Assembly (NCBI RefSeq): GCF_000426705.1
Contig: NZ_KE384556.1
Coordinates: 180,876 to 244,875 of the forward strand
Direction of reading: 5' to 3'
Length of the DNA: 64,000 nt
DNA from: Spirochaeta cellobiosiphila DSM 17781
GTDB lineage: Bacteria; Spirochaetota; Spirochaetia; DSM-17781
Shown: piece by piece, positions 28,816 to 44,396 of the stretch
Layout: every line of letters starts with the position of its first letter
How positions within the stretch are numbered: position 1 is the stretch's first letter
Translations under genes and position numbers: made by a program
The notes under the pieces: generated by a model
Databases searched by the model: none
What the model was told of the DNA's origin: nothing
What the model saw: only the letters and a program-made list of their open reading frames with translations

Positions 28816-30114
28816 CTAATTCGGCCACGAAGCATCAATAGCCTTAACAGCTTGATCCAAAGTTCTGGAACCTGAGACATAACCTGTCATTTCTTTCCAG
28901 AAAGAACCGGCACCTACGGCTCCAGGCATTAAGTCAGAACCATCAAAGCGCAAGGCTTTGGCATTCTTAAGCAATTCCTGTAATCTTCTATCAACAGGAT
29001 TAGTCAGCCAATTAGGATCAACATCCTTCTGAGGAGCCAGAACCCCACCAGAGGCAAGCCATGTTTTAATAGATTGGGCCGAAGCAAAATACTGCATCAC
29101 TTGTCTTACTTCAGGACGGTCATTAAACATAGCGTAAATATCCCCACCAACAAGCAATGGAGCCCCATAAGTATCATTAACAGGAGGAAGATTAAAGAAG
29201 TCGTAATCTACCCCGGGCTGTAAGCCTTCAGGGAAGAATGACACAATGAAGTTCCCTTGATCATGCAACCAGGCTTTAGGTGGTTCTTCGAATAATACTT
29301 TGGCAGAATCACCAAAAGATGTGGTTGGAATAGACTTTCTACCACCATACACATTTCCTTCAGGGAACCATATATCAGACCAGGTCTGAATCGCTGTTCT
29401 GACTTCAGGGGAATCAAACTTCAAATCCCCAGTTAACCATCTGTCATAATTTTCCAAGGATGTGGTTCTAAGCATTAACTGTTCTGTCCAATCGGTGGCA
29501 GTCCAGCCAGTAGCGGCGCCGGATTCTATACCGATGGCCCAGGGAGCGTCTCCGTCACTCTTGATTTGTTCCATCAAAGACTCTAGCTCGGCCCATGTAG
29601 TAGGCACTTTATATCCTGCAGCATCAAAAGCTTTTTTGTTATACCACACTATTCCTTTAAGATTAACTCTGGCCCATAACCCCGCCATAATGGGACCATC
29701 AGGACCTGTCATAGTTCCCATATCAAGCCAGCTCTGAATGTAATTATTTCTTACTTTAGTCATGTCCAGAGTCTTGCTTAAGTCAATAACCTTACCTGTC
29801 TTTACAAAGTTTTCCAGTAGACCCGGTTGGGGAAAGTCAGCTATATCAGGAGGATTCCCTCCTTCAATACGCACAGATATGGAGGCTTCAAATTCTTTTG
29901 AACCTTCATATTGGATATCAATGCCTGTTTCTTCTTCGAAGGCTTTGATACTTTCCTCAAACTTAACAGCATCATTGTCAGTAAAGGGACCAGCCATGGT
30001 AACAACTTTCTTGTCTGATCCTTTTGACATGTCATCTTTTTTCTGACAGCTAGTAGTGCCTAGAATCATCAAGAACACCATTAAAGCCAGAATAAGAGTT
30101 AAGATTCTTTTCAT
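28816..30114 (-). CDS. Sugar-binding lipoprotein of ABC importer (family 1, AglE-like)
   Basis: 432 residues with a lipoprotein signal (TTSC, Cys23) and the family 1 solute-binding fold: VVTMAGPFTDNDAVKFEESI, then EGGNPPDIADFPQPG and a WYNKKAFDAAGYKVPTTW segment typical of oligosaccharide-binding proteins. It captures sugar outside the inner membrane and delivers it to the permeases encoded downstream. AAAGGAG precedes the ATG. Resembles alpha-glucoside AglE proteins. No glycosidase or regulator is adjacent, so the sugar is not confirmed by context. Confidence 0.88.
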   Translation of the reverse strand: MKRILTLILALMVFLMILGTTSCQKKDDMSKGSDKKVVTMAGPFTDNDAVKFEESIKAFEEETGIDIQYEGSKEFEASISVRIEGGNPPDIADFPQPGLLENFVKTGKVIDLSKTLDMTKVRNNYIQSWLDMGTMTGPDGPIMAGLWARVNLKGIVWYNKKAFDAAGYKVPTTWAELESLMEQIKSDGDAPWAIGIESGAATGWTATDWTEQLMLRTTSLENYDRWLTGDLKFDSPEVRTAIQTWSDIWFPEGNVYGGRKSIPTTSFGDSAKVLFEEPPKAWLHDQGNFIVSFFPEGLQPGVDYDFFNLPPVNDTYGAPLLVGGDIYAMFNDRPEVRQVMQYFASAQSIKTWLASGGVLAPQKDVDPNWLTNPVDRRLQELLKNAKALRFDGSDLMPGAVGAGSFWKEMTGYVSGSRTLDQAVKAIDASWPN

Positions 30115-30162
30115 TAAAATTCTCCTTTTTATATTTGGCGCCTGGAGGAGCCCTTATAAAAA

Positions 30163-30191
30163 AGACTAGTTCATGGGAAGTCTGTTGTCAA
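30163..30191 (-). promoter_or_regulatory. Promoter of the sugar importer operon
   Basis: On the minus strand TTGACA (30186-30191) and TAGTCT (30163-30168) are separated by 17 bases, about 50 bases before the binding-protein ATG. The -35 is perfect and the -10 poor, which fits a promoter that needs an activator. Confidence 0.5.
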
Positions 30192-30350
30192 AAAAATGCT
30201 TATAAAGCTTGGTCCATATGTACTGTCAGGATTTTCTTTTTTCTTTGTCCTTTAAGAACTAAGAATAGGATATGTGTTGTGAGAAAAAACAGGGAGAAAT
30301 ATCACAAGGCATTTTAATTTAAATGTTATATATAACCAAAAGGAGTCCAG

Positions 30351-30376
30351 CCGGTAGCCAGTGTACAGGCTACCGG
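30351..30376. terminator. Hairpin after the DUF2892 gene
   Basis: CCGGTAGCC (30351-30359) and GGCTACCGG (30368-30376) form a 9-bp stem with an 8-base loop, 12 bases past the DUF2892 stop. The T-run on the minus strand is delayed (CTCCTTTT), so it is a moderate terminator. The 30192-30350 stretch beyond it shows nothing else I can name. Confidence 0.55.
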
Positions 30377-30387
30377 TTATCAAAAGT

Positions 30388-30591
30388 TTATTCCTTAGGT
30401 CGCGTATTTATGTGAAAAGGCAAATACAGAGGGCAGAATGAAAAGAAAGCGGTCACAATAAATACAGCCCCGAGTACAGCCCCCAGGAACCAGAGACCTC
30501 CCATGCTTACTTGCATGATGATCGATACTACAACGAATACAGCGCCAAGAACAAATCGAATTAACCTGTCTAATGAACCAATATTTTTCAT
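30388..30591 (-). CDS. DUF2892 (YgaP-type) small membrane protein
   Basis: 67 residues beginning MKNIGSLDRLIRFVLGA, the standard start of DUF2892 domains, with two membrane helices and a Cys in SFCPLYLPF. These domains are found alone or fused to rhodanese (YgaP) and are otherwise uncharacterised. The ATG at 30591 follows AAGGAG with 7-base spacing, so the longer frame to 30618 is rejected. Monocistronic. Confidence 0.85.
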   Translation of the reverse strand: MKNIGSLDRLIRFVLGAVFVVVSIIMQVSMGGLWFLGAVLGAVFIVTAFFSFCPLYLPFHINTRPKE

Positions 30592-30742
30592 AAAAACACT
30601 CCTTATTATACTCATCACTCTTCTAAATATATTATTTCATATATACAAAGACAATAAAGAATTATATAAAAAATATATAGGTTTTATATTCCTTGTGTAT
30701 TAAACTTCCTACTAACCAAGGATTTAAAGGACTATTTTTATA

Positions 30743-31972
30743 ATGTATATAATTAAATCAATTACAACTATGGCATTAATCTTTATATCTACTTTCTTAT
30801 TATCCTGTGATCTTATGAATCCAAAGACTCCAACGACTCCAACGACTCCATCTACACCTTCCCATCCTAATAGACCTAAAGAGATAAAGAAGTTAACCCT
30901 ATATAAGCCTGAAGTAGCCATTCAAACACCGAATCATCTTGTATTTGAGGAATCCATAACCTTTGACGGAAGAACCTTTAACCCGAACAATGAACCACTA
31001 ACATGGAATATCAAATATGAGCAAGACTATAATGCTGCAATAGGAAAGTTTGGAGAAGAATCTCAAGTGGAGAAAGAAGTTGTTACTTATTCCTCTTTTG
31101 ATTACACACCTCCAGCTTCAGGCTACTATCGAATATCTTTATATAGAGAGGGTGTTAAAGTTGCTATTGGACGTTTTATTGTGACCAGAAATCCCTTCGA
31201 TAACAGTGCCCCACCTACAGCAAAACTCAATATACATAAGCTGCCAGATAGGAATGATAAACAGATACATATTGATGCTGTAGGGAGTAAGGATGATGCA
31301 GATACCGTAGAAGAACTACGTTACCGTTGGAACTTAATGCCAATTAGCCTAGATACCTTTATGAGGTACCAAACCCCACGAGAAGCTAGGGAAGTTTTAA
31401 GCGATAAACTCCATGGAACAGAAAAAGTATGGAAAGAAAAATTATCTATAGCTAGAGGACTATATTATGTTCAACTAGTTGTTCAAGATAAGATATATGA
31501 CAGAGCTAGAGAGTCTTTTTGGGGTACTGCCCCTTCAGAGCAATACACGCAATTCTACATTGCCCCTAAAGGGCAACCAATAGACTTACAAACGGATCCT
31601 ATGTCCTTTTCTATCAAGAATTATGATACAGATATCCCTACCATGCATATTGGTGATTTCTTTTGGTATGAAATAGTGAGAAATACACAGAGGTTCGAAG
31701 ACATTATGATTATTTACATGTTAAGAGTAGGAAAGGATACCCTCCTGCGTTATGGTGTCAGTACATTCGATGATCCAGGTAGTAAAGTGGGGTATGGCTG
31801 GACTGAAGATACAATACTGATAACTCATGTTAGAGATGACTTTCGAGCCATAGAAATACCCAAACTTACAAGTGAGGAGTTAAACTACTTTACTTCTCCT
31901 TACGGTGGATTTAATACCGATGGCTATGCTTTTGAAACTGATACGGGCTATGAGCTCAAACTTCCTTATTAG
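30743..31972 (+). CDS. Hypothetical lipoprotein with Thr-Pro linker
   Basis: 409 residues: lipoprotein signal with LLSC (Cys22), then a Thr/Pro linker (TPTTPTTPSTPS) encoded by near-perfect 9-base repeats (ACTCCAACG) at about 30826-30855, then beta-rich, possibly Ig-like domains (YTPPASGYYRISLYREG; DAVGSKDDADTVEELRYRWN resembles a PKD-type fold). The coding sequence is AT-rich. The protein ends abruptly in ELKLPY, while another frame stays open past its stop to 32193, suggesting the C-terminus was cut off by a frameshift. Surface role inferred. Confidence 0.75.
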   Translation: MYIIKSITTMALIFISTFLLSCDLMNPKTPTTPTTPSTPSHPNRPKEIKKLTLYKPEVAIQTPNHLVFEESITFDGRTFNPNNEPLTWNIKYEQDYNAAIGKFGEESQVEKEVVTYSSFDYTPPASGYYRISLYREGVKVAIGRFIVTRNPFDNSAPPTAKLNIHKLPDRNDKQIHIDAVGSKDDADTVEELRYRWNLMPISLDTFMRYQTPREAREVLSDKLHGTEKVWKEKLSIARGLYYVQLVVQDKIYDRARESFWGTAPSEQYTQFYIAPKGQPIDLQTDPMSFSIKNYDTDIPTMHIGDFFWYEIVRNTQRFEDIMIIYMLRVGKDTLLRYGVSTFDDPGSKVGYGWTEDTILITHVRDDFRAIEIPKLTSEELNYFTSPYGGFNTDGYAFETDTGYELKLPY

Positions 31973-32218: not shown

Positions 32219-32323
32219 TTTGCTTGTAAGCAAACCAATACTTTCCTTAGACCAAAGCACTAAGTTGGTCTAAGGAAATCAGTCAAATGGTCTAAGCATT
32301 TCTCTTATTTGCTTACAAGCAAA
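32219..32323. repeat. Nested inverted-repeat element between convergent genes
   Basis: TTTGCTTGTAAGCAAA (32219-32234) and its exact reverse complement (32308-32323) flank a perfect 14-base inverted repeat, TTTCCTTAGACCAA (32242-32255) with TTGGTCTAAGGAAA (32265-32278), 9-base loop. A third copy of TGGTCTAAG lies at 32288-32296. Each outer arm can also fold on itself. It could be a bidirectional terminator, although it has no T-run, or an intergenic repeat of the BIME/MITE kind. Confidence 0.6.
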
Positions 32324-32324
32324 T

Positions 32325-33023
32325 TTACAATTTGATACTTAAGATATTACTGAAGCAGGTTTGAATCCGATCAAGGTCCTTACCAAAGGTCAAGCTAAGG
32401 TGATAATTCCCAAGGGGGAGATCTTGGGGAAGAGTACAGAGAATAATAGTGGGAGTTCGTCGCAGGACTTTTGTAATATCCCAGTAGGAACCATCAGTTT
32501 CATTCGTAAGCACTAACTGAACATCATCGGACAAGTCAAAACTTCTTCCTTGTAGTTCTATCACCTGGCCAGGACTGTAGTCGGGACCATAGTTGTTGGC
32601 TTCAAAGTTATAGATAAGATTGATCTTGGGATACTTCTGATTAGGATGGCACTTTTGAAAAGAAGCGCCCTTAAGGATATAGCTCTTCAGCTCCTTGGAC
32701 GGATTCAAATTCACCCGCACCTTATGCTCATCAGGATCAAATTCACTGTTCTCTTCAGGGAAACCGCCACCAATACTGGTAGAAGCTTTGAACAAATCCA
32801 TATTAATACGATTACCAACCAAGAGCTCAGCTTTGATGACTTCCGTTAATAGGTCTAACACAACCATAATATCTTGCCGGGATACGGTGGTGTTCTTCGA
32901 AGCCATGATATTGAGGATATCTTCCTGGCTTAGACTGTCCTTGGCAATGACACGGGCAACATACTTCTTAAGTTCTTTGTTTTGCAGGTTGTTAGGTTCT
33001 AGATAGTAATTGATTTTTCTCAT
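32325..33023 (-). CDS. HU-like DNA-binding domain with DUF4469 C-terminus
   Basis: 232 residues. The N-terminal half (to about 110) has the HU/IHF-like fold seen in HU-DNA_bdg proteins: YVARVIAKDSLSQEDIL, then DIMVVLDLLTEVIKAELLVG and RVNLNPSKELK. The C-terminal half is a DUF4469-type Ig-like/TIG domain (PGQVIELQGRSFDLSDDVQL). Such two-domain proteins occur in Bacteroidota and spirochaetes; the role is unknown, possibly nucleoid-related. AGGAG precedes the ATG. Its upstream region is an unusual run of A- and T-tracts (33073-33110), which could bend DNA. Confidence 0.8.
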   Translation of the reverse strand: MRKINYYLEPNNLQNKELKKYVARVIAKDSLSQEDILNIMASKNTTVSRQDIMVVLDLLTEVIKAELLVGNRINMDLFKASTSIGGGFPEENSEFDPDEHKVRVNLNPSKELKSYILKGASFQKCHPNQKYPKINLIYNFEANNYGPDYSPGQVIELQGRSFDLSDDVQLVLTNETDGSYWDITKVLRRTPTIILCTLPQDLPLGNYHLSLTFGKDLDRIQTCFSNILSIKL

Positions 33024-41475: not shown

Positions 41476-42243
41476 ATGTATCAATATATCAAGAGTGTCT
41501 TCCTCATAGGACTTATTTGTTTGAAGGGGCCTTTATTTGCTCTCAATGGAGAGGAAATTGCAAGACAATCCCTTAAAGCAGGACCGCGAATATCTAGTTA
41601 TGAGGCTCTCCAGATGGAAATCATAAAGCCAGATGCCAGTGTAGAATCTACGACCCTGGAAAAGTGGGTACAAAACTCGAAATCCGGTGCTTCAACTCTG
41701 ATGATTTTTCATACTCCTATAAGTCTGGCAAACACAAAATTTCTTCAAATACCAAAACCGGGTCTGGATGATCTGTGGCTGTTTCAACCTATCATTGAAA
41801 GAGTAAGTGCTCTTGATAAAAGCACTCGGGGAAAATCTTTTATGGGAACAGATTATTCTTACTATGACTGGGAAGACCAGGAATTGAACAGTAAAACTTA
41901 TGAATTAATGCGCGAGGAAGTTCATCAAGACTGGACTTGCTATGTTGTTAAGGAAATACCTATAGACCAGATCACAAGTCCCTACTCCCTGGTTATGACC
42001 TGGTATGATAAAAGGTCCTTTTATCCTGTGTATAGAGAATTCTATGATAAAGAGAATAACCTTTTAAAGACCTTTAGCGTTAATAATCTCGAACAGATAT
42101 CAGGCTATTGGACGGCTATTGATAGTAATATTGTGAATCACAACACTGGGCATATGACGGTTATATCCCAATTAAAAATCATTTACGATGAAAACTTTGA
42201 CCCTAGTATGTTCACTAAGGATTACCTGGAGAAAAGTAAATAA
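41476..42243 (+). CDS. LolA-like outer-membrane lipoprotein-sorting protein
   Basis: 255 residues with a signal peptide (to about residue 23) and the layout of the PF17131-type LolA-like proteins: GEEIARQSLKAG near the mature start, a central LWLFQPIIERVSALDKSTRGKSFMGTDYSYYDW segment (given here only to mark residues about 109-140), DWTCYVVKEIP and a final YDENFDPSMFTKDYLE. Homologues are usually encoded next to an RND/MMPL transporter; here none follows. Periplasmic and probably binds a lipid or lipoprotein. AGGAG precedes the ATG by 9 bases. Divergent from the TetR gene. Confidence 0.8.
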   Translation: MYQYIKSVFLIGLICLKGPLFALNGEEIARQSLKAGPRISSYEALQMEIIKPDASVESTTLEKWVQNSKSGASTLMIFHTPISLANTKFLQIPKPGLDDLWLFQPIIERVSALDKSTRGKSFMGTDYSYYDWEDQELNSKTYELMREEVHQDWTCYVVKEIPIDQITSPYSLVMTWYDKRSFYPVYREFYDKENNLLKTFSVNNLEQISGYWTAIDSNIVNHNTGHMTVISQLKIIYDENFDPSMFTKDYLEKSK

Positions 42244-42249
42244 ACAATG

Positions 42250-42276
42250 ACTCTTGAGAAAGAAATTCTTAAGAGT
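42250..42276 (+). terminator. Hairpin after the LolA-like gene
   Basis: ACTCTTGAGAA (42250-42260) and TTCTTAAGAGT (42266-42276) form an 11-bp stem with one G-T pair. The downstream T content is low, so it is a probable weak terminator. Confidence 0.5.
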
Positions 42277-42320
42277 TATTCGATAAAAATATCTAAAATG
42301 ACTAGTCAAAACTTTATAAA

Positions 42321-42340
42321 AGTGTAGTATATACTTCACT
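42321..42340. promoter_or_regulatory. Near-perfect 20-base palindrome
   Basis: AGTGTAGTATATACTTCACT is symmetrical except for one T-T position. It lies about 100 bases upstream of the putative RNA gene at 42440-42600 in a gene-free stretch and may be an operator. Confidence 0.4.
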
Positions 42341-42439
42341 ATGGCGTAACTTTACACACTATGTGCAATTCATACGCTATATTGAGAAATAGTTCAACTT
42401 GCCCTAGTGGTTGAGGGTATGGGGGACTATAATAGAACT

Positions 42440-42600
42440 AGGTATATATCGCCTCACGTTTAAAGCTGGCCTTCTCCGCCCGGCTGTTGAGTTTGTCATA
42501 GTTATCGCTATGTGTGAGGTGATGTTATATAACTCATAGTCTTGTTAAGACCATGAGCCAAAACACGCTTAAGGCTGCCTCTGTCAGGGGCAGCCTTTTT
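42440..42600 (+). ncRNA. Putative structured RNA, unassigned family
   Basis: A TATAAT at 42428-42433 predicts a transcript beginning near 42440. CGCCTCAC (42450-42457) pairs with GTGAGGTG (42514-42521), extended outward by A-T pairs. Inside are hairpins GCTGG/CCGGC (42465-42469 with 42480-42484) and CATAG/CTATG (42497-42501 with 42508-42512), making a three-way junction. A further hairpin CTCAT-a-GTCTT/AAGAC-c-ATGAG (42533-42557) and an intrinsic terminator follow. No frame of note runs through it. I see no tmRNA, RNase P or SRP signature motif. A divergent 6S-like RNA is possible. Confidence 0.55.
42571..42600 (+). terminator. Strong intrinsic terminator of the putative RNA
   Basis: AAGGCTGCC (42571-42579) pairs with GGCAGCCTT (42589-42597) around a 9-base loop, ending in TTTTT. 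It faces rightward, while the next gene runs leftward, so it must end a rightward transcript that has no protein gene within 320 bases. Confidence 0.85.
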
Positions 42601-42614
42601 ACGTTTATTTAAGA

Positions 42615-44396
42615 TTAGATAACAGTAGACATCCTATCCACCCGGTATTGTCTAATATAAAGATCATGATAATGACCTCCAGCCTTAAGAAGCTCTTTGT
42701 GAGTTCCTGCTTCTATAATTTGGCCTTTCTCAACAACCAATATCCGATTGGCTTTTCGAATGGTACTAAGGCGGTGAGCAACAACAAAACTTGTTGTACC
42801 TGCCATAAGATTATCCATACCTTCCTGAATATTAGCTTCGGTCAAGGTATCCACGGAACTAGTAGCTTCATCGAGAATGATGATTTTAGGTCTTGCCAGA
42901 ATCGCTCTTGCCAGGGATATCAACTGTTTTTGTCCTACAGACAGGAGATTCCCCCCTTCACCCACGTCTTCTTCATATCCTTTAGGGAATTGCTGAATAA
43001 AATCATGAGCACAAGCGAGACGCGCCGCCTCTTCGATTTCCTCTCGAGTGGCATCAAGTCTTCCATACCTTATGTTGTCTTCTATGGTCCCTGAAAACAG
43101 ATGAGGTGTTTGCAGAACAATACCTAACTGAGATTGCAAACTAAGCTGTGTATAGTCCTTATAATCCCGTCCATCAATCTTCAATATACCAGAGGTTGGT
43201 TCATAGAAGCGCCCTACTAAGTTAACAATGGTGCTTTTGCCTCCCCCTGTTGGCCCTACCAGGGCAATAGTCTCCCCAGGTTTCACCTTGAGGTTGAAGT
43301 TCTCAAGGATAGGTTTATCAGGGGAATAATGAAATCCTACGTTATCAAACTCAATACTTCCCTCGATAGGAGGCAAGGAATCATTGGTCAAATCCTTAAT
43401 AGAAGGTTCTTGTTCAATAAGATCAAAGACCCTCTCTGCACTGGCCAATCCTCTTTGCATTTCACTAAATACCCGGGCGATATCCTGTATGGGATACATC
43501 ATAAAAGTAATGTATCCGATGAAAGCTTGGAGACTTCCCAAGGACAAGCCCCCCACTTGGATTTCATGTCCTCCTACAAGGAAGACAGCCCCCAGGGCTA
43601 CAGCTGTCATCAATTGGACAGCAGGCAAGAACATGGCTGATAGCCAAGAAGCTCGATATGCTGCTTTATTCATATCGGAACTTACAGCACTGAAATCTTT
43701 TAGGTTTTCATCTTCCCTTACAAGGGATTTGATGATCTTGACCCCTGATATGGTCTCATTATAAGCTCCGGTCATACGACTATTCAAAGAACGAACCTTT
43801 CGGAACTCTCTGATAATATGACCTTTAAACTTCATAGCAATCCATACAAGGAAAGGCATAGACGCAAATATAATAAGAGCCAACTTCCAATTAATAAGAA
43901 GCATAAAGATCAATGATGTCACTATATGAAGAGACCCCCAAAGGGTATCCAATAAGTGCCATGTTGCTAAATCACTAATTCGTAAAGTATCACTAGTGAC
44001 CCGGCTCATGATTCTCCCTACTTGATGTTTATCAAAGAAGGAAAAACTCAAATCCTGCAGCTTGTTAAAGGTCTTCTTTCGTAATATGTACTGAAGTCTT
44101 TCCCCCAAAAGGCCTGCAGCCCATATAAACATAAAGATACTAATAGATAGTAAAAGCTGTAGTCCACCAAAATAGATCAGACCCATTTTGATGTTATCAA
44201 CACTACCAGCAACGACACCATGATCAATGGTCCACCTTAAGACCATAGGTCCTAAGGCTTCCAACAAGGCTGTCACACTAATAAAAATTATAAAACTCGA
44301 TAATAAAAAAGGATATTGTCCAGATTCCTTAAAAATCTTTTTAAGGAGTGTACCCATGGACTGATTCCTTACTGATTCATTCTGTTCGTAATCCAT
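42615..44396 (-). CDS. ABC exporter half-transporter, subunit B
   Basis: 593 residues: six-helix type IV exporter domain (to about 330), then the ATPase with Walker A GPTGGGKST, signature LSVGQ (Gly to Val change at position 3), Walker B IIILDEATSSVD with the catalytic Glu, and H-loop VVAHRLST. Its start overlaps the stop of the first subunit (TAATG). The altered signature complements the altered Walker B of the partner, so the pair should have one degenerate and one active ATP site, like TM287/288 or BmrCD. Substrate unknown. Confidence 0.9.
   Translation of the reverse strand: MDYEQNESVRNQSMGTLLKKIFKESGQYPFLLSSFIIFISVTALLEALGPMVLRWTIDHGVVAGSVDNIKMGLIYFGGLQLLLSISIFMFIWAAGLLGERLQYILRKKTFNKLQDLSFSFFDKHQVGRIMSRVTSDTLRISDLATWHLLDTLWGSLHIVTSLIFMLLINWKLALIIFASMPFLVWIAMKFKGHIIREFRKVRSLNSRMTGAYNETISGVKIIKSLVREDENLKDFSAVSSDMNKAAYRASWLSAMFLPAVQLMTAVALGAVFLVGGHEIQVGGLSLGSLQAFIGYITFMMYPIQDIARVFSEMQRGLASAERVFDLIEQEPSIKDLTNDSLPPIEGSIEFDNVGFHYSPDKPILENFNLKVKPGETIALVGPTGGGKSTIVNLVGRFYEPTSGILKIDGRDYKDYTQLSLQSQLGIVLQTPHLFSGTIEDNIRYGRLDATREEIEEAARLACAHDFIQQFPKGYEEDVGEGGNLLSVGQKQLISLARAILARPKIIILDEATSSVDTLTEANIQEGMDNLMAGTTSFVVAHRLSTIRKANRILVVEKGQIIEAGTHKELLKAGGHYHDLYIRQYRVDRMSTVI

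Follow-up and report, generated by a model that had tools for sequence, protein, structure and literature searches.

A candidate lineage-specific small RNA with a three-way junction between convergent lolA-like and ABC-transporter genes of Spirochaeta cellobiosiphila

Introduction

A stretch of 64,000 nucleotides of Spirochaeta cellobiosiphila DSM 17781 (hereafter the window) contains, between a LolA-like gene and an ABC-transporter gene, an intergenic element with an unusually stable predicted fold. The question raised by this locus is whether the element is a small-RNA gene of its own, a member of a known RNA class, or the structured junction at which two neighboring transcription units end. 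A first-pass annotation had proposed an RNA with its own promoter and terminator, either new or belonging, in divergent form, to a known class, and we examined this proposal computationally.

Results

Structure of the Locus

The features of the locus, in window coordinates, are as follows.

41476-42243, + strand: LolA-like gene (PF17131)
42246-42280, + strand: 15-bp hairpin after lolA, lacking a T-tract
42428-42433, + strand: TATAAT, candidate -10 box found in the sequence, with a predicted start at about 42440-42441
42441-42598, + strand: candidate small RNA of about 157 nt (fold z -4.9), the most stable segment of the window
42442-42530, + strand: predicted three-way junction of P1, P2 and P3
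42442-42457/42514-42530, + strand: helix P1, 16 bp with one bulge, closing P2 and P3
42460-42469/42480-42490, + strand: hairpin P2, inside P1
42470-42479, + strand: loop of P2, CUUCUCCGCC, pyrimidine-rich, a possible pairing site judging from sequence and fold
42497-42502/42507-42512, + strand: hairpin P3, inside P1
42533-42557, + strand: hairpin P4, with an A-C mismatch on the + strand and an uninterrupted 14 bp on the - strand
42571-42602, + strand: predicted intrinsic terminator, with a 12-bp stem at 42571-42597 and a loop of 3
42615-44396, - strand: second gene of an ABC-transporter pair

The stop codons of the lolA-like gene (42243, + strand) and of the ABC-transporter gene (42615, - strand) face each other across a gap at 42244-42614. 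The gene-free stretch of about 350 bases between a rightward and a leftward gene, as noted in the first-pass annotation, was thus borne out, with a measured length of 371 bases, and the TATAAT hexamer, the long helix closing two hairpins, the further hairpin and the strong rightward terminator were each located within it. No open frame crosses the gap, as stops break all six frames, and a small protein was therefore rejected. The G+C content of the candidate element is 46%, compared with 32% in the upstream part of the gap; a contrast of this kind is the basis of the GC-IGR search for structured RNAs (PMC8632094).

Stability of the Predicted Fold

The minimum free energy of 42425-42605 was -63.4 kcal/mol, against a mean of -44.0 for shuffled sequences (z -4.9), and none of 200 shuffles was as stable. 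When 160-nt segments were tiled over both strands of the 64-kb window, the 160-base element exceeded all 1,596 of them in stability. Helices that close a multiloop with 14 or more pairs appeared in only 12 of 1000 shuffles, and the junction at 42441-42530 alone gave a z of -3.6. These data confirm that the fold anatomy is real and beyond chance.

The reverse strand of the element is close behind in stability (-59.8, z -5.2), and P4 on that strand is a perfect 14-bp hairpin followed by TTATAT, which may mark the end of the ABC operon mRNA. Helices P1-P3 on the + strand include six G-U pairs and are free of A-C mismatches, which favors the + strand because G-U pairs become A-C mismatches on the other strand, the count itself being biased towards the + strand since the + fold supplied the helices.

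Start and End Signals

The start of transcription predicted from the TATAAT hexamer falls at the foot of P1. Exact TATAAT is common in the 64-kb window (n = 75; 37 on the + strand and 38 on the - strand), and the 160 nt downstream of the site at 42428 are the most stable among the 75 sites (-61.5 versus -48.6 for the next best). Promoter prediction returned neither a -35 box nor a complete sigma-70 promoter for the candidate RNA (0 promoters). Of the promoter previously claimed, the hexamer is present and, lacking a -35 partner, the -10 box alone carries the claim. The terminator attributed to the 3' end was recovered at 42571-42597 plus T5; its TTTTT overlaps the end of the stem, and it is one of four strong + strand terminators in 64 kb.

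The earlier assertion that the element cannot be the terminator of lolA proved too strong. The hairpin belonging to lolA itself (42246-42280) has no T-tract and was not called in the terminator prediction, and the lack of a T-tract makes read-through of lolA transcripts into the element possible.

Comparison with Known RNA Classes

The search of the locus against Rfam suggested in the first-pass annotation was carried out, and no family matched: at the gathering score nothing in the window matched, and at E values up to 10 the gap gave only four matches, all of which were taken as chance. Staphylococcus sRNA71 reached 21.2 bits, where the cut-off is 50, and was rejected as chance, the three other matches being weaker. 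The annotation was correct that no tmRNA, RNase P or SRP RNA lies at the locus; all three are found elsewhere in the genome above the Rfam cut-off, with 155 bits for tmRNA, 281 bits for RNase P and 71 bits for a small SRP RNA. Its suggestion that 6S RNA was the most likely class did not hold. RF00013 had no match at 42240-42640 up to an E value of 10, and the sole match in the genome, a full-length 6S RNA (59.1 bits), lies on another contig. Further, 6S RNA is typically one long hairpin opened by a large central bubble, and this was not seen, the predicted fold being branched, with a three-way junction plus two hairpins. We rejected the 6S suggestion because the genome's own housekeeping RNAs were found elsewhere and because there was no Rfam match.

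A role as a CsrA decoy was also rejected, as the candidate RNA is without GGA. No match to Hfq (PF17209) was found in the genome, which is 96% complete, while 5 of 14 control genomes had a match; a Hfq-dependent small RNA is therefore unlikely, within the limits of that completeness.

Search for Homologues

No homologue of the element was found by blastn, first in 41 and later in 395 genomes of the class, nor by searching the 395 genomes with a covariance model of the complete element; in this collection the order of the window is represented by a single genome. Phages, plasmids and viral contigs likewise gave no homologue. Matches of the whole-element model outside the genome were weak, at most 24.6 bits versus 197 for the element, and several centered on the terminator; a second match within the genome fell around the terminator, on the reverse strand. 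A model from which the terminator was left out, run against the window and 20 loci, matched the element alone. The blastn matches in the class were rejected as homologues, those at L015 and L016 being similar terminator stems and those at L020 and L024 being G+C-rich, coding-looking pieces.

In relatives, the neighbors of lolA are genes of about 440-480 codons on the same strand, with no comparable gap beside it; lolA is kept in this other gene setting, and an orthologous gap for alignment is therefore lacking. In the genome collection, the ABC gene has its nearest relative (55% identity) among different neighbors. That relative, a similar two-gene ABC pair (L044:1874-5716), sits in a metagenome-assembled genome labelled Anaerolineae, possibly through transfer or mis-binning.

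Other Structured Spots in the Window

Several further structured spots were observed. Upstream of the candidate RNA, at 42321-42340 (no strand assigned), lies the near-perfect 20-bp palindrome AGTGTAGTATATACTTCACT, of which 0.01 per window would be expected by chance. It is possibly an operator. No second site was found in the window or the genome within 3 mismatches, and a regulon was rejected because the palindrome is present as a single copy in the genome. The stretch at 42330-42440 is itself structured on the + strand (z -4.0), with a hairpin that overlaps the TATAAT. Elsewhere, a large nested inverted repeat at 32222-32324 ends on each side in the palindrome TTTGCTTGTAAGCAAA and encloses arms of the TTAGACCA type; it lies directly after a - strand HU-domain gene (32325-33023), gives a z of -4.7 on the - strand, ranks, for its G+C content, with the window's most stable segments, and had no Rfam match. 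This repeat may be mobile or terminator-like. A segment at 30315-30414, in a 630-base gap at 30114-30743, is also structured, with a z of about -4 on both strands.

Discussion

Judged by its anatomy, the element can reasonably be read as an RNA gene that carries both a start and an end of its own, and the proposal of a new small RNA stands to that extent, at about an even chance. We consider a dedicated, lineage-specific small-RNA gene of about 157 nt on the + strand to be the best explanation. With a sigma-70-type -10 box directing initiation near 42440-42441, the transcript would run to about 42600, where the intrinsic terminator lies. The 5' end of the RNA would be locked in the long P1 helix of the three-way junction, P4 and the terminator stem would come next, and P1 together with the terminator would be expected to stabilize the molecule.

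The flanking genes are convergent, and the element could instead be the structured junction of their two transcription units, with no RNA gene at all. Here, P1-P3 would be the 3'-UTR of lolA, the transcripts of which would pass the weak hairpin and end at 42597, and P4 on the - strand would be a terminator-like hairpin of the ABC unit. The uncalled lolA hairpin with no T-tract, the perfect 14 bp of P4 on the - strand with the TTATAT that follows, and the missing -35 box all fit this arrangement, and we regard it as possible, at a level clearly short of even. It is opposed by P1-P3, which are unlike terminators, pair best on the + strand and start directly after a consensus -10 box, and by the - strand hairpins, which have no clean T-tract. 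It may also be asked whether the element is only the 3' domain of a longer RNA spanning roughly 42300-42600 (about 300 nt), with the TATAAT inside the RNA. The segment 42300-42605 folds with a z of -5.5, the stretch at 42330-42440 folds better on the + strand than on the - strand (z -2.1), and a hairpin overlaps the TATAAT. However, most 100-nt windows in 42275-42474 are unremarkable (z -1.4 to -0.2), the predicted start suits P1 better, and no promoter was found upstream, so that a larger RNA appears decidedly improbable.

Assignment to a known class as a divergent member, for example as a second 6S RNA, has in its favor the length of about 160 nt and the own terminator, and little more. Against this stand the 6S, RNase P, SRP and tmRNA genes placed elsewhere above the Rfam cut-off, the chance level of the four Rfam matches in the gap and the branched fold, and we hold such membership to be very remote. 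An undescribed class of structured RNA limited to this isolated order, in which the three-way-junction domain would serve a non-antisense function, for example protein or ligand binding, seems rather unlikely.

If the element is a small-RNA gene, the product may act in trans as an antisense RNA without Hfq, with the P2 loop CUUCUCCGCC pairing with purine-rich ribosome-binding sites; we consider this mechanism doubtful. The complement of the P2 loop is not enriched in the genome (8 places, the locus itself included, versus 8 for a reversed control pattern), and sequences nearly matching it are located inside reading frames or antisense to them and not, as a rule, at gene starts. Among 38 gene starts of the window, the best one had a z of -2.9, which is about that expected for the best of 38.

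If transcribed, the candidate would add another orphan small RNA to a lineage that is deep, little studied and without detected Hfq, and would offer a handle on RNA regulation without the Hfq chaperone. It is a useful negative result that the candidate does not supply a missing 6S, RNase P, SRP or tmRNA; taken alone, the candidate has no bearing on any long-standing question.

Among known systems, 6S RNA (RF00013) is similar to the candidate in length and stability and differs in shape, being one long bulged hairpin whereas the candidate is predicted to form a three-way junction. Staphylococcus possesses Hfq-independent antisense small RNAs with C-rich loops. The candidate shares with these RNAs a stable fold, an exposed pyrimidine-rich loop and an intrinsic terminator, in a genome with no Hfq match; in contrast to them, it shows no homology, and its loop complement is not enriched at gene starts. 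A further parallel is offered by the unassigned small RNAs of the spirochaetes Leptospira interrogans (PMC5243855) and Borrelia burgdorferi (PMC5051733), which are likewise intergenic, without an Rfam relative and probably lineage-specific. Those RNAs were seen by RNA-seq, whereas the candidate is predicted from sequence alone; on the other hand, it has a strong intrinsic terminator, while most Leptospira small RNAs are without one (PMC5243855). Putative small RNAs have been reported in numbers of 277 for L. interrogans and 351 for B. burgdorferi, and few of those in Leptospira resemble known families (PMC5243855). Because the studied spirochaetes thus have hundreds of unassigned small-RNA candidates, an orphan small RNA of the kind proposed here would be ordinary among them.
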